38,087 nucleotides of DNA, from assembly GCA_002084135.1 (NCBI GenBank), contig MUIB01000089.1, positions 1 to 38,087 of the forward strand, in the 5' to 3' direction. A model generated the notes under the pieces. The model did not search any database and had not been told where the DNA came from. It was given only the letters and a program-made list of their open reading frames with translations. Each line of letters starts with the position of its first letter. The first letter of the stretch is position 1. Shown one piece after another: positions 14,447-22,487 of the stretch. This DNA comes from Spirochaeta sp. LUC14_002_19_P3. Its GTDB lineage: Bacteria; Spirochaetota; Spirochaetia; DSM-2461. Made by a program: the position numbers and the translations under genes.

Positions 14447-15415
14447 TTAACCCTTTATTGCTTTCACATACTGGAGACGCTGATAGAAATCGTTGCGTTG
14501 ATCGTCCTTCATGCTCAATTTACCGCGAAAATCGTTGAGAGACTGGAACTTATGGGAGATCATCCATTCTTTTAAGCTATCCAGAAATTGCTGAATAACC
14601 TGTAGCCCGTTGCGATAGAGCACACTGCAAAGCTGGGCCGCACTGCCGCCAGCCAGAAGTACCTTAATGAGACTGGATGGATCATAAATGCCGGTTGAGG
14701 CGGAAAAATCAAGATTCGGAGTTTCCGCCAGAATACCAATCCAGCGCAGAACTGTACTGAATTCTTCCGCCGCGGAAAGTGTATTGCCCGATTTTAATTC
14801 CATCGTGTCAATATTAATATCCATTGTATAGTAGCGGTTGAAAAGAGTAAGGGCATTGGCACCGGCATCTCTCAGGCGAATTGCCAGATTCGGTAGGGCG
14901 GAATAATGCGGTCCCAGCTTTACCGCTAGCGGAATGCTAACAGTATTGCGGGCCTGAACTACCATATCCACCAGCTTATCCTCTATTTTTTGCGCAGAGG
15001 TTTTATAATCCAGTGCTATCGGCGAAAGATTCAGCTCAATGGCATGCGCTCCTACACCGGCAATACGCTCGACATAATCCACCCACCAGCGGACGGAATT
15101 GCAGTTCAGACTGGCAATAACGGGAATATCAACAGACTGCACACAGCCCTCTACCAGATTCAGATAGGTATCGGGTTCATACAGCATGTTCATCTGTTCG
15201 AGATAGAGCAAGGCTTCCGGGTCCATACCCTCATCCATCCGGTCACTGCTGTTTGCCTTGGCAATATCCTCCTCGAATAGCGACTTGAGCACGACAGCTC
15301 CAGCCCCGGCCCTGCATGCTTCCTGCACCCCTTTAACACTGGCGGTGAGCGAGGAAGATGAAACGATAATCGGATTGGGAAGTTTGATTCCCATATATTG
15401 TGTACTAATGTCCAT
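14447..15415 (-). CDS. Dihydroorotate dehydrogenase-like protein
   Basis: MDISTQYMGIKLPNPIIVSSSSLTA...; FMN TIM-barrel pattern including IELNLS and STGIYD. Confidence 0.85.
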   Translation of the reverse strand: MDISTQYMGIKLPNPIIVSSSSLTASVKGVQEACRAGAGAVVLKSLFEEDIAKANSSDRMDEGMDPEALLYLEQMNMLYEPDTYLNLVEGCVQSVDIPVIASLNCNSVRWWVDYVERIAGVGAHAIELNLSPIALDYKTSAQKIEDKLVDMVVQARNTVSIPLAVKLGPHYSALPNLAIRLRDAGANALTLFNRYYTMDINIDTMELKSGNTLSAAEEFSTVLRWIGILAETPNLDFSASTGIYDPSSLIKVLLAGGSAAQLCSVLYRNGLQVIQQFLDSLKEWMISHKFQSLNDFRGKLSMKDDQRNDFYQRLQYVKAIKG

Positions 15416-15504: not shown

Positions 15505-15533
15505 TTGACATTTTTTGTAAAGCCCATTTAACT
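15505..15533 (+). promoter_or_regulatory. Putative promoter P2 (TTGACA-N17-TTAACT)
   Basis: Perfect -35, 17-bp spacer, just before the leader peptide. Confidence 0.5.
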
Positions 15534-15540
15534 AAGCGGT

Positions 15541-15597
15541 ATGAGAAATGCCCCTGCTCTGAATAGTGTTATTTTTTTCGCAGCCGCAGCCCCTTAA
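15541..15597 (+). CDS. Putative leader peptide MRNAPALNSVIFFAAAAP*
   Basis: 19-codon frame with GCA GCC GCA GCC Ala run, located in segment 1 of an attenuator fold. Confidence 0.6.
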   Translation: MRNAPALNSVIFFAAAAP

Positions 15598-15659
15598 TTG
15601 GGTCGCGGTGTAAATTTATCCTGAAACCGCGGCAATACAGCAGCCGCGGTTATTTTTTG
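15584..15659 (+). promoter_or_regulatory. Transcription attenuator: competing 1:2, 2:3 and 3:4 hairpins ending in an intrinsic terminator
   Basis: 3:4 AACCGCGGC/GCCGCGGTT followed by ATTTTTTG; 2:3 GTCGCGGT/ACCGCGGC; 1:2 CCGCAGCCC/GGGTCGCGG. Confidence 0.7.
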
Positions 15660-15682
15660 TTCAGAGGGCATAAGGAGAGTGT

Positions 15683-16987
15683 ATGAGACGGAATATTGTT
15701 CACGTTGGAGCGGATCAACTTCGCTATGAGATACGGGAAATTGTAGAAAGAGCGCATGAAATCAGAAAGCTCGGGGTTCCTGTTACCTGGGAAAACATTG
15801 GCGACCCCGTGCAGAAGGGGGAATCGGTTCCGGAATGGATTAAGGCCATTGTTCACGAGCTGGTAGACAAAGATGCCGCCTATCAGTACACCGATTCCGC
15901 AGGGAGCAAGGCAACGAGAGACTTTCTCGCGGAGCAGGCTAATAAACAGGGGGGAGTCAATATCCGCCCCGAAGATATTTTGTTCTTCAATGGGCTGGGC
16001 GATGCCGTTTCCACCCTTTTTACCCACATGCGCCGCGAAGCAAGAGTTCTTGGCCCCAGCCCCGCCTATTCCACGCTGTCCTCCGCCGAAGCCTCCCATT
16101 CCGGATATGAGCACTTCACCTACATGCTTGACCCCGACAATGGCTGGCAGCCCAACCTTGCTGACATTAAGAAAAAAGTCCGCTACAACGATTCCGTGGC
16201 CGGCATTTTGCTGATCAACCCCGATAACCCCACTGGAGCTGTGTATCCTGCCTCCATCCTGGAAGAAATCGTTGCAATTGCCCGCGAAGAGAAACTGTTC
16301 GTGCTGGCCGATGAAACCTACCGCAACCTCGTCTATCCCGGCAGCGACACGGCTCCTTTGAGTCAGGTAATAGGCGATGTTCCCGGCATATCCCTGCGCA
16401 GCATATCCAAAGACTTCCCCTGGCCCGGTGCTCGCTGCGGCTGGATGGAGGTTTACAATCAGGATAAAAATTCCACATTCCGGCGCTACATTGCCAGCCT
16501 GCTGGATGCCAAGCGTCTCGAAGTCTGCTCCACCACCCTGCCGCAAATGGCCATTCCCAAAGTTATGTCCCATCCCCAATTTGCCGGACACCTTGCAAGA
16601 AGGGCGGAAATGTTCTCCAAACGGGCCGATGAAGCCATGGCCATCCTCGGCAGCGTGCCGGAAATCAGCGTTGTAAAACCGGGCGGAGCCTTCTTTCTCA
16701 CTGTAACCTTTAATATCGATCTGCCCAGCAGCGGCCCCCTTCCCCCCATAGCCAACAATCAGGTTTATCGCTATGTTACCGAGCTGGTAAAAGATGTTCC
16801 CCCCGACAAACGCTTCGTTTACTGGCTTCTCGGAGCAGTCGGCATCTGCACCGTTCCCCTGAGCGGCTTCTGCAGCAGCCTTCCCGGCTTTAGAAGCACC
16901 CTGCTGGAAACCGATGACGCAAAACGCCGCCGCACTTACGAAACCCTGGCAGCCGCGATAAGGGAGTACTGTTCGTATCAGGCCTGA
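15683..16987 (+). CDS. PLP-dependent class I/II aminotransferase
   Basis: NPDNPTGAVYP, ADETYRNLVYPG, SISKDFPWPGARCGW (PLP-Lys region); SD aaggaga. Confidence 0.92.
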   Translation: MRRNIVHVGADQLRYEIREIVERAHEIRKLGVPVTWENIGDPVQKGESVPEWIKAIVHELVDKDAAYQYTDSAGSKATRDFLAEQANKQGGVNIRPEDILFFNGLGDAVSTLFTHMRREARVLGPSPAYSTLSSAEASHSGYEHFTYMLDPDNGWQPNLADIKKKVRYNDSVAGILLINPDNPTGAVYPASILEEIVAIAREEKLFVLADETYRNLVYPGSDTAPLSQVIGDVPGISLRSISKDFPWPGARCGWMEVYNQDKNSTFRRYIASLLDAKRLEVCSTTLPQMAIPKVMSHPQFAGHLARRAEMFSKRADEAMAILGSVPEISVVKPGGAFFLTVTFNIDLPSSGPLPPIANNQVYRYVTELVKDVPPDKRFVYWLLGAVGICTVPLSGFCSSLPGFRSTLLETDDAKRRRTYETLAAAIREYCSYQA

Positions 16988-18168: not shown

Positions 18169-18227
18169 GATTAAAATACAAATAAATGTTATGTATTTGG
18201 TCATATAAAAACTGGAAAGTGGGGAAT

Positions 18228-21200
18228 ATGGATAAGTCTCTGGGAATTTGTATCGGTGCTTCAATGATTAAGGTGGCTGTTATAGATGAGAATCGGCGCG
18301 TTATTGATACGCGCATTGTAAGCCACGACTGCCATCCACAGCAGGCGCTTATGAGTATCTTTGAGGATGTGAATCTCAAGGAGTATCGATATGCGGCAGT
18401 TACCGGGCGGAGGTTCAAGGAGCTTTTGAATCTTACCGCTATTACCGAGCCCGTGGCGGCTGAATATGCGCTCCGCTATATGCCGCACAGGAACTGCCGG
18501 GCGCTTATAAGCCTCGGGGCGGAAAATTTCATTCTCTATGCGCTCAATGATCAGGGTAGCATTATCAATGTACAGACTGGCAACAAGTGCGCTTCGGGTA
18601 CAGGAGAGTTCTTTTTGCAGCAAATCCGCCGCATGGATATTTCTCCCGAAGAGGCCATTGCGCTTGCCAAGGATTCCGAACCCTACACGGTGTCCGGGCG
18701 TTGCAGTGTGTTCTGTAAAAGCGACTGCACCCATGCTTTGAACAAGGGCATTCCCAAAGGCCGGGTAAGTGCCGGCCTAGGCAATATGATTGCCGATAAG
18801 GCCATTGAGCTACTCAAGTCCATCGAAAAGAACAACATTATGATCGTAGGCGGGGTTACCAAAAACGATTATGTCGTTGGTGCCTTAAGAAAACACATTG
18901 ACAATTTGGTTATACCGGAACATGCCGCGGTATTCGAGGCATTAGGTGCCGCAGTTTATGCGCTGGAGCAGCAGATACCGGCGGGCGAAGAGTTAATTTT
19001 CGCTACCGATCACTGTTCGTTCAGCAGCCTGCCGCCCTTGCACAGTGCCGAGCATCTGGTTAATTTCAGGGATTCCATCCGTGAACAGCCCACTGTGGGA
19101 GATGAATACATACTGGGACTCGATGTGGGGTCAACAACAACAAAAGCTGTATTGATTCGACTGCGCGATGAGACAATCGCCGCTTCTGTTTATTTGAGAA
19201 CCAACGGGAACCCCATAGCGGCATCCCGAAACTGCTACCGGGACATACTGGCCCAGCTTCCGGTGGAGGAGGGCGCGGATGTTGCGGAGAGCTATAAAAT
19301 TGTTGGCCTGGGGGTAACCGGCTCCGGGAGGCAGATTGCCGGGCTGCATGCCGCCACGGACGGTATCGTGAACGAGATTATCGCTCATGCGGCAGGTGCG
19401 GCCCATTTCGACCCTGAAGTGGACACCATTTTCGAAATCGGCGGGCAGGATGCCAAGTACACCTTCCTTATAAACGGGGTGCCCTGCGATTATGCCATGA
19501 ACGAAGCCTGCTCCGCCGGAACCGGCTCCTTCCTTGAGGAGTCGGCCAAGGAATCCCTGAATATTAATTATTTGGATATCCAGGATATAGCCATAAAGGC
19601 GCAGAGTCCGCCGAATTTTAACGATCAGTGCGCGGCCTTTATCAGCTCGGACATTAAAAACGCTTCCCATGAAAACATTTCCCGCGAGGACATTGTCGCC
19701 GGGCTGGTTTATTCCATCTGCATGAACTACACCAACCGGGTTAAGGGCAGCCGCAAGGTTGGGAACAAGGTTTTTATGCAGGGGGGCGTGTGCTACAACC
19801 GGGCGGTGCCTCTGGCTATGGCGCAGCTCATAAAAAAAGAGATAATTGTGCCGCCCGATCCGGGTTTGGTGGGGGCTTTCGGGGTTGCCCTGGAAATTAA
19901 AAACCGCCTTGAAAGCGGCATGATGAAGAAAGGCCAGTTCGACTTGAGCGAGCTCAGCGAAAAGGAGGTGGAGTACGGCAAGAGCTTTATCTGTGCCGGA
20001 ACCTCAGAGAACTGCGATAGAGGCTGTTCGATTAACATTATAAAAATAAGCGGAAAAAAATATCCCTTTGGGGGGGTCTGCAATAAATACTACAACCAGC
20101 TTCATCATCTGAACATCGATCCCCTGCCGTTGGACTACATTGCCCGGCGTCAGAAGCTGCTGTTTGAACGGCACAGCCGCTGCGACTCCGGTAAAACCAT
20201 CGGGCTGCCCAAAACCCTCTACACGCACGTACTCTTTCCGCTCTACTATCATTTTTTCACAGGTTTGGGCTATGAAGTTATGCTCTCTGATACGGTAGAC
20301 CCAGAAGGCATTAAAAAGACCTCCTCCTCATTCTGCTTTCCGGTGGAGATAGCGCACGGGATGTTTGAGAACCTTGTAAAGAAAAATCCTGACTTCATAT
20401 TCCTGCCCCATGTTACCCGGCTGTACAGGCCGAACACGGGTTCCATCCGCGAAGGCAATAACTGCACCTGCGTTTTGGCTCAGAGCGAGCCGTATTACAT
20501 AAAAAGCGCTTTCCATAAATCCATTCCGAAAATTATCAGCCCTGTTCTCGATTTTTACCACGGATGGGAATCCATGAAAGAGGAATTCATAAAAATAGCC
20601 CAGCAGCTCGGCTGTGATAAACAAACGGCAGAAACAGCCTACGCGGATGGTGTTCAAAAACAGTACGATTTTTACACCGCCAAAAAGCAGCTTGGCAAGG
20701 AAATTCTCGAAAAGCTCCAAATGGAACCCAACAGCATTGCCGTAGTTGTTTTTGGGCGACCCTACAATGCTTTTTCCGGGGAAGGGTGCATGGGCATACC
20801 CCGCAAATTTGCCTCTCGCGGCGTTTATGTTATTCCCTTTGACTGCCTGCCCTATGCCGATGAGCCTACCATGGAAAACATGAACTGGGCCCTCGGCCAC
20901 GAAATTATCCAGGCCTCCCGCTACGTAAAAAGGCATTCCCAGCTCTACGGAGCATTCATTACCAACTTCAGCTGCGGCCCCGATTCCTTCATACTCGGGT
21001 ACTTCCGCGACATTATGAAAACCAAGCCCTCCCTAACCCTGGAATTAGATTCCCACAGTGCCGATGCCGGTATAAACACCCGCATAGAAGCCTTTCTGGA
21101 CATCGTAAACCGCAGCATTCGTCTCAAACTCCAGGACAGCCCCGAGGGTGAGTTCAGCCCGGCCCGCATTGTCCGAAACAAAGGAAAACACTACTACCTT

Positions 21201-22487
21201 ACGAGCGAAGGCAGGCAAGTTCCCCTTAAAAGCCGCCGCGTAAAACTGCTCATCCCCTCCATGGGGCGTCCCATCAGCGAATTCACCGCCGCCGCGTTCC
21301 GGGGCATAGGCTTCAACGCCGCCGCCGTGGAACGCCCTACCTTTGAAACCCTTATGACAGGCCGCGCCCATTCCTCCTGCAAGGAATGTATGCCCCTTAT
21401 TATGACAACAGCCTCCCTCGTGAACCATGTTAAGCAAAGGGCCGACGATGAGCTCTCCCTCTACTTCATGCCCTCCACCGGCGGCAACTGCCGCTTCGCC
21501 CAGTACCATGTCTACATTAAGGGGCTTATTAAAAAACTCAAACTGAAAAACACCGCCCTGCTCACCCTAAGTGCCGAACAGAACTACGCCGGACTCGGCG
21601 GATTCGATCAGATTCATATTCTGCGCTCTATTATCCTTGCTGACATTATGGACGACATTGGGAACGCCCTTCTGGTGCTGCCCAAAGATAAACACAAGGC
21701 CCAGCAGATTTTTAAGGCCCAGTGGGAAAAAATAATCGCTTCCCTGGAACGCGGCACCGATGATATTTACCACGTTCTGGAAGAGGTGGCTGCGAAGCTC
21801 GCCGAAATTGAACTTACCCACACCCTCGCCGAAGCGAAAAAAGTGCTCCTGTCCGGGGAAATTTACGTGCGTAAGGACGAATTCGCCTCCGGGGAAGTTA
21901 TAAAACGGCTCGCCGCCAAAGGATTCATTGTAAAACGTGCCCCCGTGCTCGAATGGACATACTACATTGATTACATTTCCAAAAACATTTTGCACACCCA
22001 TTTTACCCTGCGGGAACGGCTTGAAACCTTCATAAAAAACACCGTGGAACACCACATCGAAAAAAGAATAAAAAGCACCCTCGCTAAATCCGGTCTCTAC
22101 GAATTTGAAAAAATCGACATTCAGCAAGTTTTTGAAGCCGGAAAGGAATTCATAGACCCCCGCATGACAGGTGAAGAAATCCTTGTAATCGGCTCCTTCT
22201 TCCGCGAAGTTGCCCGGCACGTTCACGGCGTTATTTCCATTGGCCCCTTCGCCTGCCTCCCTACGCGGGTATGCGAAGCCATACTCAACGTAGAATCCAG
22301 GGTGCAAGACAACTTCCGTATCGCCCACCTCGACAACGCCGATCAGCTTAAGGCCTATCACACACTTCCCTTCCTTAGCATCGAAGCCGACGGCAACCCT
22401 TTTCCCCAGGTTATCGAAGCCAGGATAGAAGCCTTCTCCCTCCAGGCTAACCGCCTCTATCAGCAAATGCCCAAAAAAGCGGGGTAG
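18228..22487 (+). CDS. Large 2-hydroxyacyl-CoA dehydratase activase fusion (two BadF/BcrA ATPase-like modules plus DUF2229-like region)
   Basis: Repeated activase motifs (KCASGTGEFF; GLDVGSTTTKAVLI...FEIGGQDAK...NEACSAGTGSFLEE), long C-terminal region. Confidence 0.9.
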   Translation: MDKSLGICIGASMIKVAVIDENRRVIDTRIVSHDCHPQQALMSIFEDVNLKEYRYAAVTGRRFKELLNLTAITEPVAAEYALRYMPHRNCRALISLGAENFILYALNDQGSIINVQTGNKCASGTGEFFLQQIRRMDISPEEAIALAKDSEPYTVSGRCSVFCKSDCTHALNKGIPKGRVSAGLGNMIADKAIELLKSIEKNNIMIVGGVTKNDYVVGALRKHIDNLVIPEHAAVFEALGAAVYALEQQIPAGEELIFATDHCSFSSLPPLHSAEHLVNFRDSIREQPTVGDEYILGLDVGSTTTKAVLIRLRDETIAASVYLRTNGNPIAASRNCYRDILAQLPVEEGADVAESYKIVGLGVTGSGRQIAGLHAATDGIVNEIIAHAAGAAHFDPEVDTIFEIGGQDAKYTFLINGVPCDYAMNEACSAGTGSFLEESAKESLNINYLDIQDIAIKAQSPPNFNDQCAAFISSDIKNASHENISREDIVAGLVYSICMNYTNRVKGSRKVGNKVFMQGGVCYNRAVPLAMAQLIKKEIIVPPDPGLVGAFGVALEIKNRLESGMMKKGQFDLSELSEKEVEYGKSFICAGTSENCDRGCSINIIKISGKKYPFGGVCNKYYNQLHHLNIDPLPLDYIARRQKLLFERHSRCDSGKTIGLPKTLYTHVLFPLYYHFFTGLGYEVMLSDTVDPEGIKKTSSSFCFPVEIAHGMFENLVKKNPDFIFLPHVTRLYRPNTGSIREGNNCTCVLAQSEPYYIKSAFHKSIPKIISPVLDFYHGWESMKEEFIKIAQQLGCDKQTAETAYADGVQKQYDFYTAKKQLGKEILEKLQMEPNSIAVVVFGRPYNAFSGEGCMGIPRKFASRGVYVIPFDCLPYADEPTMENMNWALGHEIIQASRYVKRHSQLYGAFITNFSCGPDSFILGYFRDIMKTKPSLTLELDSHSADAGINTRIEAFLDIVNRSIRLKLQDSPEGEFSPARIVRNKGKHYYLTSEGRQVPLKSRRVKLLIPSMGRPISEFTAAAFRGIGFNAAAVERPTFETLMTGRAHSSCKECMPLIMTTASLVNHVKQRADDELSLYFMPSTGGNCRFAQYHVYIKGLIKKLKLKNTALLTLSAEQNYAGLGGFDQIHILRSIILADIMDDIGNALLVLPKDKHKAQQIFKAQWEKIIASLERGTDDIYHVLEEVAAKLAEIELTHTLAEAKKVLLSGEIYVRKDEFASGEVIKRLAAKGFIVKRAPVLEWTYYIDYISKNILHTHFTLRERLETFIKNTVEHHIEKRIKSTLAKSGLYEFEKIDIQQVFEAGKEFIDPRMTGEEILVIGSFFREVARHVHGVISIGPFACLPTRVCEAILNVESRVQDNFRIAHLDNADQLKAYHTLPFLSIEADGNPFPQVIEARIEAFSLQANRLYQQMPKKAG

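Follow-up and report, generated by a model that had tools for sequence, protein, structure and literature searches.

The window, a stretch of 38,087 nucleotides, is a contig from an incomplete (78%) genome. Its plus strand carries a gene for an aminotransferase, preceded by a short leader with a promoter-like sequence, a small open reading frame (ORF) containing consecutive alanine codons and an intrinsic terminator (Table 1). The terminator occupies 15625-15658, with the hairpin at 15625-15651 followed by A and T6, and the aminotransferase ATG at 15683 lies 24 nt past its end at 15658. The leader ORF, the four Ala codons, the terminator and the 24-nt gap had been described in a first-pass annotation of the window, which also described the upstream neighbour as divergent; all of these features are present as described. 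Elsewhere in the window, positions 18186-22487 encode a protein of 1433 aa that belongs to the 2-hydroxyacyl-CoA dehydratase activator type and carries BcrAD_BadFG in two copies together with DUF2229.

Table 1. Features of the leader and its flanking genes in the window; the last line gives a leader region from a different locus.
Feature	Position	Strand	Basis or remark
Dihydroorotate-dehydrogenase-like gene, divergent upstream neighbour	14447-15415	minus	
-35 element TTGACA	15505-15510	+	TTGACn at a fixed distance before nearly every leader in the class
Putative -10 element TTAACT, weak, 17-bp spacing	15528-15533	+	sequence and inference; spacing conserved in the class
Leader ORF, peptide MRNAPALNSVIFFAAAAP	15541-15597	+	sequence; counterpart in 34 other Spirochaetia leaders; probably leaderless
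Four consecutive Ala codons GCA GCC GCA GCC, predicted sensing codons and segment 1	15580-15591	+	
TAA stop of leader ORF	15595-15597	+	
Segment 2, GUCGCGGU	15602-15609	+	duplex with segment 3
Segment 3, AACCGCGGC	15625-15633	+	common to antiterminator (with 15602-15609) and terminator
Segment 4, GCCGCGGUU, 3′ arm of terminator	15643-15651	+	hairpin energy; same helix covaries in 20 relatives
U tract of terminator (T6)	15653-15658	+	sequence
Shine-Dalgarno AAGGAG of aminotransferase	15672-15677	+	sequence
PRK06855-type PLP aminotransferase, predicted alanine-forming, predicted attenuator target	15683-16987	+	NF005334
Ile leader region, L184 (G485)	1460-1720	minus	

The aminotransferase scores 623 bits against the NF005334 model (PRK06855), for which the cut-off is 443, and the next best NCBIfam model, the alanine aminotransferase PRK08363, is matched well below its own cut-off. 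The closest solved chains by sequence are the putative transaminase 1xi9 and AlaA of Escherichia coli (4cvq), and the nearest named orthologues, from Spirochaeta sp. and Spirochaetaceae MAGs, share 69-72% identity. Among 14 diverse members, the lysine of SKDFPWPGARCGW, the NPDNPTG motif and a GFR at the C terminus show no or almost no variation. From its sequence, we infer that the PRK06855 enzyme forms alanine. An alanine dehydrogenase scores over its cut-off in 8 of the 10 genomes checked, including that of the window; therefore, most of them have another possible source of alanine, and a role of the enzyme as the sole source is ruled out. No Ala leader was seen before an AlaA-like second aminotransferase in five relatives. 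A search of a plasmid collection for the aminotransferase returned only distant aminotransferases, and no useful result came from looking for characterised PRK06855 members by way of MJ1479.

The upstream regions were collected for orthologues from 61 relatives, from two broad class and phylum surveys and from 80 named genome contigs. A leader was counted when a short ORF that starts with ATG and contains four or more Ala codons in a row was located upstream of the aminotransferase orthologue. Such an ORF occurs at 35 of the 49 Spirochaetia orthologues and at none of the 93 orthologues from outside the class, which represent other classes of the phylum, Desulfobacterota, Planctomycetota, Hydrogenedentota, Acidobacteriota and others. 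Its chance rate is 0.26% of shuffles that were meant to keep dinucleotides. The first-pass annotation had named beforehand a lack of conservation in orthologues as grounds for giving up its reading; the run and the stems recur in 35 distinct leaders from 11 families (f1, f6, f13, f14, f19, f24, f27, f30, f32, f33, f36). The run is four to eight codons long and begins at residues 11-17 in all 35 leaders. The third bases of the 184 Ala codons vary freely (A 61, C 60, G 46, T 17) and the peptide outside the run is unconserved among the leaders, which indicates that the run is kept as codons and not as an RNA sequence. No residue other than Ala forms a run of at least four in the upstream ORFs of Spirochaetia, and the Phe-Phe of the window's leader is found in no other leader. 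As a result, alanine, proposed earlier as the sensed residue, is well supported in this role. Such a codon run may also serve as functional annotation, by which PRK06855, generically annotated as a 'pyridoxal phosphate-dependent aminotransferase', is predicted to form alanine.

The start of the leader ORF stands at a nearly constant distance from the promoter. In 31 of the 35 leaders the ATG follows TTGACn at 29-31 nt, and in the other four at 32-35 nt. A -35 element, 17 bp, a -10 element and 6-7 nt add up to this spacing, and for this reason the transcript of the window is predicted to start at 15539-15541, with the leader ATG at about +1, a position that the first-pass annotation had not remarked on. 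Such spacing leaves no room for a Shine-Dalgarno sequence before the leader ATG. Since it is conserved, the leader ORF is probably leaderless, with its ATG at or next to +1. The promoter proposed in the first reading stands in part: the TTGACA hexamer and the 17-bp spacing are there, while the -10 hexamer TTAACT matches TATAAT at only three of six bases and was not flagged by a promoter scan of the window.

Downstream of the Ala codons, the RNA can pair in several alternative ways. The terminator hairpin AACCGCGGC/GCCGCGGTT has a folding energy of -16.6 kcal/mol (z -4.7), and none of 200 shuffles is as stable. The 1:2 stem, within 15580-15612, reaches -14.9 kcal/mol, and the 2:3 pairing of 15602-15609 with 15626-15633 reaches -13.5 kcal/mol; as a duplex, segments 2 and 3 give -14.2 kcal/mol. 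An intrinsic terminator is located between the leader ORF and the gene in 34 of the 35 Ala-run leaders; in the exception, L063, a U tract could not be recognised. In 26 of 34 leaders segment 2 starts 3-9 nt past the last Ala codon, at or across the stop codon, and in the window it starts about 9-10 nt past it. Therefore, a ribosome stalled on Ala would leave segment 2 largely free, and a ribosome at the stop codon would cover it. The covariation of the terminator, a check proposed with the first reading, was examined in the 20 alignable leaders. In their 12-pair helix, 93% of cells are paired compared with 40-50% in slid controls, and six pairs have changes on both sides, a value that none of 500 shuffles attains. 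In more distant leaders, segments 2/3/4 change together (GUCGCGGU/ACCGCGGC/GCCGCGGU in the window, GCUGCGGU/ACCGCAGC/GAUGCGGU in L006 and ACUGUGGUU/AACCACAGU/GGCUGUGGUU in L023).

The leader of the window on its own is modestly non-random, and it is the conservation in other genomes that lifts it above chance. In one alternative explanation, the ORF would be incidental, with the hairpin serving simply as a terminator or as a 5′-UTR stability element and the GCN run forming the 5′ part of a G+C-rich structure. Such an arrangement is very unlikely: although the G+C-rich Ala codons can pair with segment 2 and the whole-region fold of the window has a z of only -3.0, the first two codon positions and the reading frame are preserved in 35 leaders with third positions free, the run keeps a constant distance from an ATG close to +1 and ends shortly before segment 2, no upstream gene on the plus strand is there for the hairpin to terminate, and the 93 same-gene orthologues outside the class lack the run.

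The effect of a ribosome on the leader was modelled by folding transcripts that stop short of terminator arm 4; the ribosome was taken to cover the RNA as far as 11 nt, counted from the first base of its A-site codon. The median probability that segment 3 is paired upstream is 0.85 at an Ala stall, 0.15 at the stop codon and 0.57 for shuffled spacers. The corresponding values for the window are 0.89, 0.35 and 0.53, and none of its 60 shuffles is as high. The pairing at the Ala stall ranks within the top 3 of 60 shuffles in 28 of 36 leaders; in L018, L060, L159, L066 and L067 the 2:3 pairing exceeds that of shuffled sequences slightly or not at all. In the ribosome-free transcript before arm 4, the 2:3 pairing has a probability of 0.81 in the window and a median of 0.80 over the leaders. 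The three alternative stems of the first-pass annotation all exist, but 1:2 is not clearly favoured over 2:3 when the ribosome is absent. Since 2:3 is predicted under such conditions, the protective 1:2 stem, real in the window, is weakly supported by the models as a general element.

The addition of arm 4 changes the balance between the structures. At equilibrium the terminator is favoured in most leaders, and in the window it forms with a probability of 0.98 whatever the position of the ribosome. The antitermination in these leaders must therefore be kinetic, which is also the assumption for classical attenuators. Equilibrium folding of the full leader was discarded as a test of switching, being uninformative where the terminator always wins, that is in the window and most leaders, and the truncated transcripts described above took its place. 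In about eight leaders, e.g., L006, L019, L098, L145 and L160-L162, the terminator is lost at an Ala stall even under equilibrium conditions, and a ribosome further on restores it.

Given the observed anatomy, conservation, geometry and foldability of the leader, it is highly probable that a ribosome-mediated transcription attenuator senses charged tRNA-Ala and controls the biosynthetic aminotransferase. The trp/his/leu-type logic suggested at first reading is supported by the recurring Ala run, the terminator, the antiterminator and their geometry. The model predicts that the promoter is used, that the leader ORF is translated, that termination takes place in vivo, that the gene responds to alanine and that the enzyme produces it. 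Transcription would begin at or next to the leader AUG, and the ORF would be translated as a leaderless message by a ribosome moving close behind the RNA polymerase. When alanyl-tRNA is plentiful, the ribosome would pass the Ala codons to the stop codon and cover segment 2, so that segment 3 pairs with segment 4 and transcription terminates ahead of the aminotransferase, releasing a leader RNA predicted at about 118 nt. When alanyl-tRNA is scarce, the ribosome would stall on the Ala codons, whose run stops shortly before segment 2. This segment would then capture segment 3 while segment 4 has yet to be synthesised, and transcription would continue into the gene.

In another alternative, the leader would be a general sensor of stalling, caused by an antibiotic or by nascent-peptide arrest as in the erm or whiB7 type, with poly-Ala as the arrest sequence. 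The controlled gene is, however, an aminotransferase close to AlaA/AlaT and not a resistance gene, and this sensor is about as improbable as the incidental ORF, even though several stresses, alanine starvation among them, elicit a response from whiB7-type uORFs (PMC10727445), and a leaderless start could make the leader sensitive to the state of the ribosome. The residues before the run, which are relevant to nascent-chain arrest, are unconserved.

For an independent retrieval of the leader, a covariance model, R1, was built from the 20 alignable leaders, from which the window was excluded. In the window's own genome, the leader site is its sole significant match (E 6.6e-5; the next has E 0.8). 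Over 297 genomes of the class, all matches with E below 1e-10, mostly training loci, are located just upstream of PRK06855, and no strong match stands before any other gene. R1 also recovers leaders outside the training set in G055, G030 and G302, with E values of 4e-5 to 5e-4. Those of the weaker matches that were inspected were rejected as Ala leaders and comprise tRNA-gene terminators, unrelated genes and one Ile leader. Control of the gene by a metabolite riboswitch or a T-box, with the ORF secondary, would suit a terminator in the 5′ UTR of an amino-acid gene, and T-boxes for alanine exist in Firmicutes, but it is extremely improbable, given that Rfam searches gave nothing at the gathering score for the window and nothing above chance for seven representative loci with lax filters, a chance-level NsiR1 match (E 0.19) being the only one, the leader RNA has only about 118 nt, and the conserved core consists of the codon run and the terminator only.

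The distribution of the alanine attenuator within the class probably includes losses. The Ala run is absent at 14 of the 49 Spirochaetia loci, four of which belong to the window's genus and one of which is cut by a contig end. In L002-L005, from the window's genus, and in L010 there is no leader, and the aminotransferase ATG is located 30-31 nt from TTGACC. Because this ATG takes the spacing of the leader ATG, the attenuator was probably deleted between the two start codons, and the enzyme gene there is probably leaderless. In the protein tree, all Spirochaetia sequences used form one group (SH-aLRT 92) with two sequences of another class, and the attenuator-less members are scattered over it as tips and small clades. 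Such a pattern fits one origin and several losses, although the tree cannot prove the direction, and the attenuator is probably ancestral in Spirochaetia. The wider proposal, an ancestral, class-wide, Ala-specific attenuator with a leaderless ORF, which exerts feedback on an alanine-forming PRK06855 enzyme and whose loss in some lineages placed the aminotransferase ATG at +1, is considered likely.

Variants of the leader were also observed. In the AT-rich L024 and L025, a leader of the same layout contains Ala-x-Ala only (SASAKA, SAKAS) and retains the set of segments 2/3/4; it is possibly a weakened or degenerating sensor. In L022, L065, L066 and L067 (f24) and in L062, an extra hairpin stands between the Ala-run ORF and a separate terminator, which suggests an attenuator with more than four segments.

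A leader with other codons occurs in L184 (G485) and L190 (G539), in which the peptide MFEATHGLIIDVRSIIILPQCGRSRGV, with Ile-Ile-Ile, and then a strong terminator are located upstream of a citramalate synthase gene. The product of this gene (TIGR00977, 552 bits) is an isoleucine-pathway enzyme, and the leader is a probable isoleucine attenuator in another spirochaete family. The Ile leader before an isoleucine-pathway gene was counted in favour of an amino-acid-matched logic in Spirochaetia.

According to a survey from 2010, leader-peptide systems were known only in Proteobacteria and Actinobacteria, to which a bacillar hisS case was added (PMC2965389). The classical attenuators of Proteobacteria (trp, his, leu, thr, ilv, phe) share with the Spirochaetia leader a run of codons for the product, a 2:3 antiterminator and a 3:4 terminator before a biosynthetic gene. 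In both, segment 2 is masked once the ribosome reaches the stop codon, which is predicted here by folding. Unlike the classical systems, the Spirochaetia leader would sense alanine, its ORF is probably leaderless and has no Shine-Dalgarno sequence, and its 1:2 protector is weak or variable.

An example of a proposed Ala-dependent leader peptide is alaL, located before alaS in Streptomyces lividans TK24 and described in 2021 from RNA-seq of one genome (PMC8079986). Its peptide MNVIGRNIFATARATSSPVAAA contains six Ala, three of them in a row, and its authors state that this type had not been described before (PMC8079986). The alaL leader precedes the gene of an alanyl-tRNA synthetase in an actinobacterium, whereas the Spirochaetia leader precedes a biosynthetic gene, contains 4-8 Ala and is spread class-wide. 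The mycobacterial polycysteine sORF attenuators (Canestrari et al. 2020, cited in PMC9031893) are also leaderless short ORFs with contiguous codons of one amino acid that control downstream genes. Their codons are for cysteine, and the citing review (PMC9031893) describes an effect on downstream translation, in contrast to the intrinsic terminator and antiterminator of Spirochaetia. Stalled ribosomes induce the uORF attenuator of whiB7, a gene that is required when alanine runs out and that drives aspC, a gene of alanine biosynthesis (PMC10727445, PMC13236596). The whiB7/wblC system is alike in its uORF, antiterminator and Rho-independent terminator, but it controls a transcription factor in response to many translation stresses and is not a dedicated alanine feedback on an enzyme gene.

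The first-pass annotation had named no classical Ala-specific attenuator as precedent. This holds for biosynthetic genes, for which none was found in the literature searched, and has to be narrowed by the precedents of Streptomyces alaL (PMC8079986) and of whiB7 in alanine starvation. The literature search, with subscription papers outside its scope, returned no alanine attenuator in spirochaetes or on an alanine-biosynthetic aminotransferase, and no paper on classical attenuation in spirochaetes. Because of this scope, the novelty is likely rather than proven. To our knowledge, alanine was without a dedicated leader-peptide attenuator on a biosynthetic gene. The approximately 35 natural variants, probably leaderless, are a good set for the study of 5′-terminal AUG initiation coupled to attenuation. 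The mechanism itself is a known one. What seems new compared with the described systems is that an attenuator of a biosynthetic gene would be specific for alanine, that its leader ORF is probably leaderless and that it extends across the class Spirochaetia.
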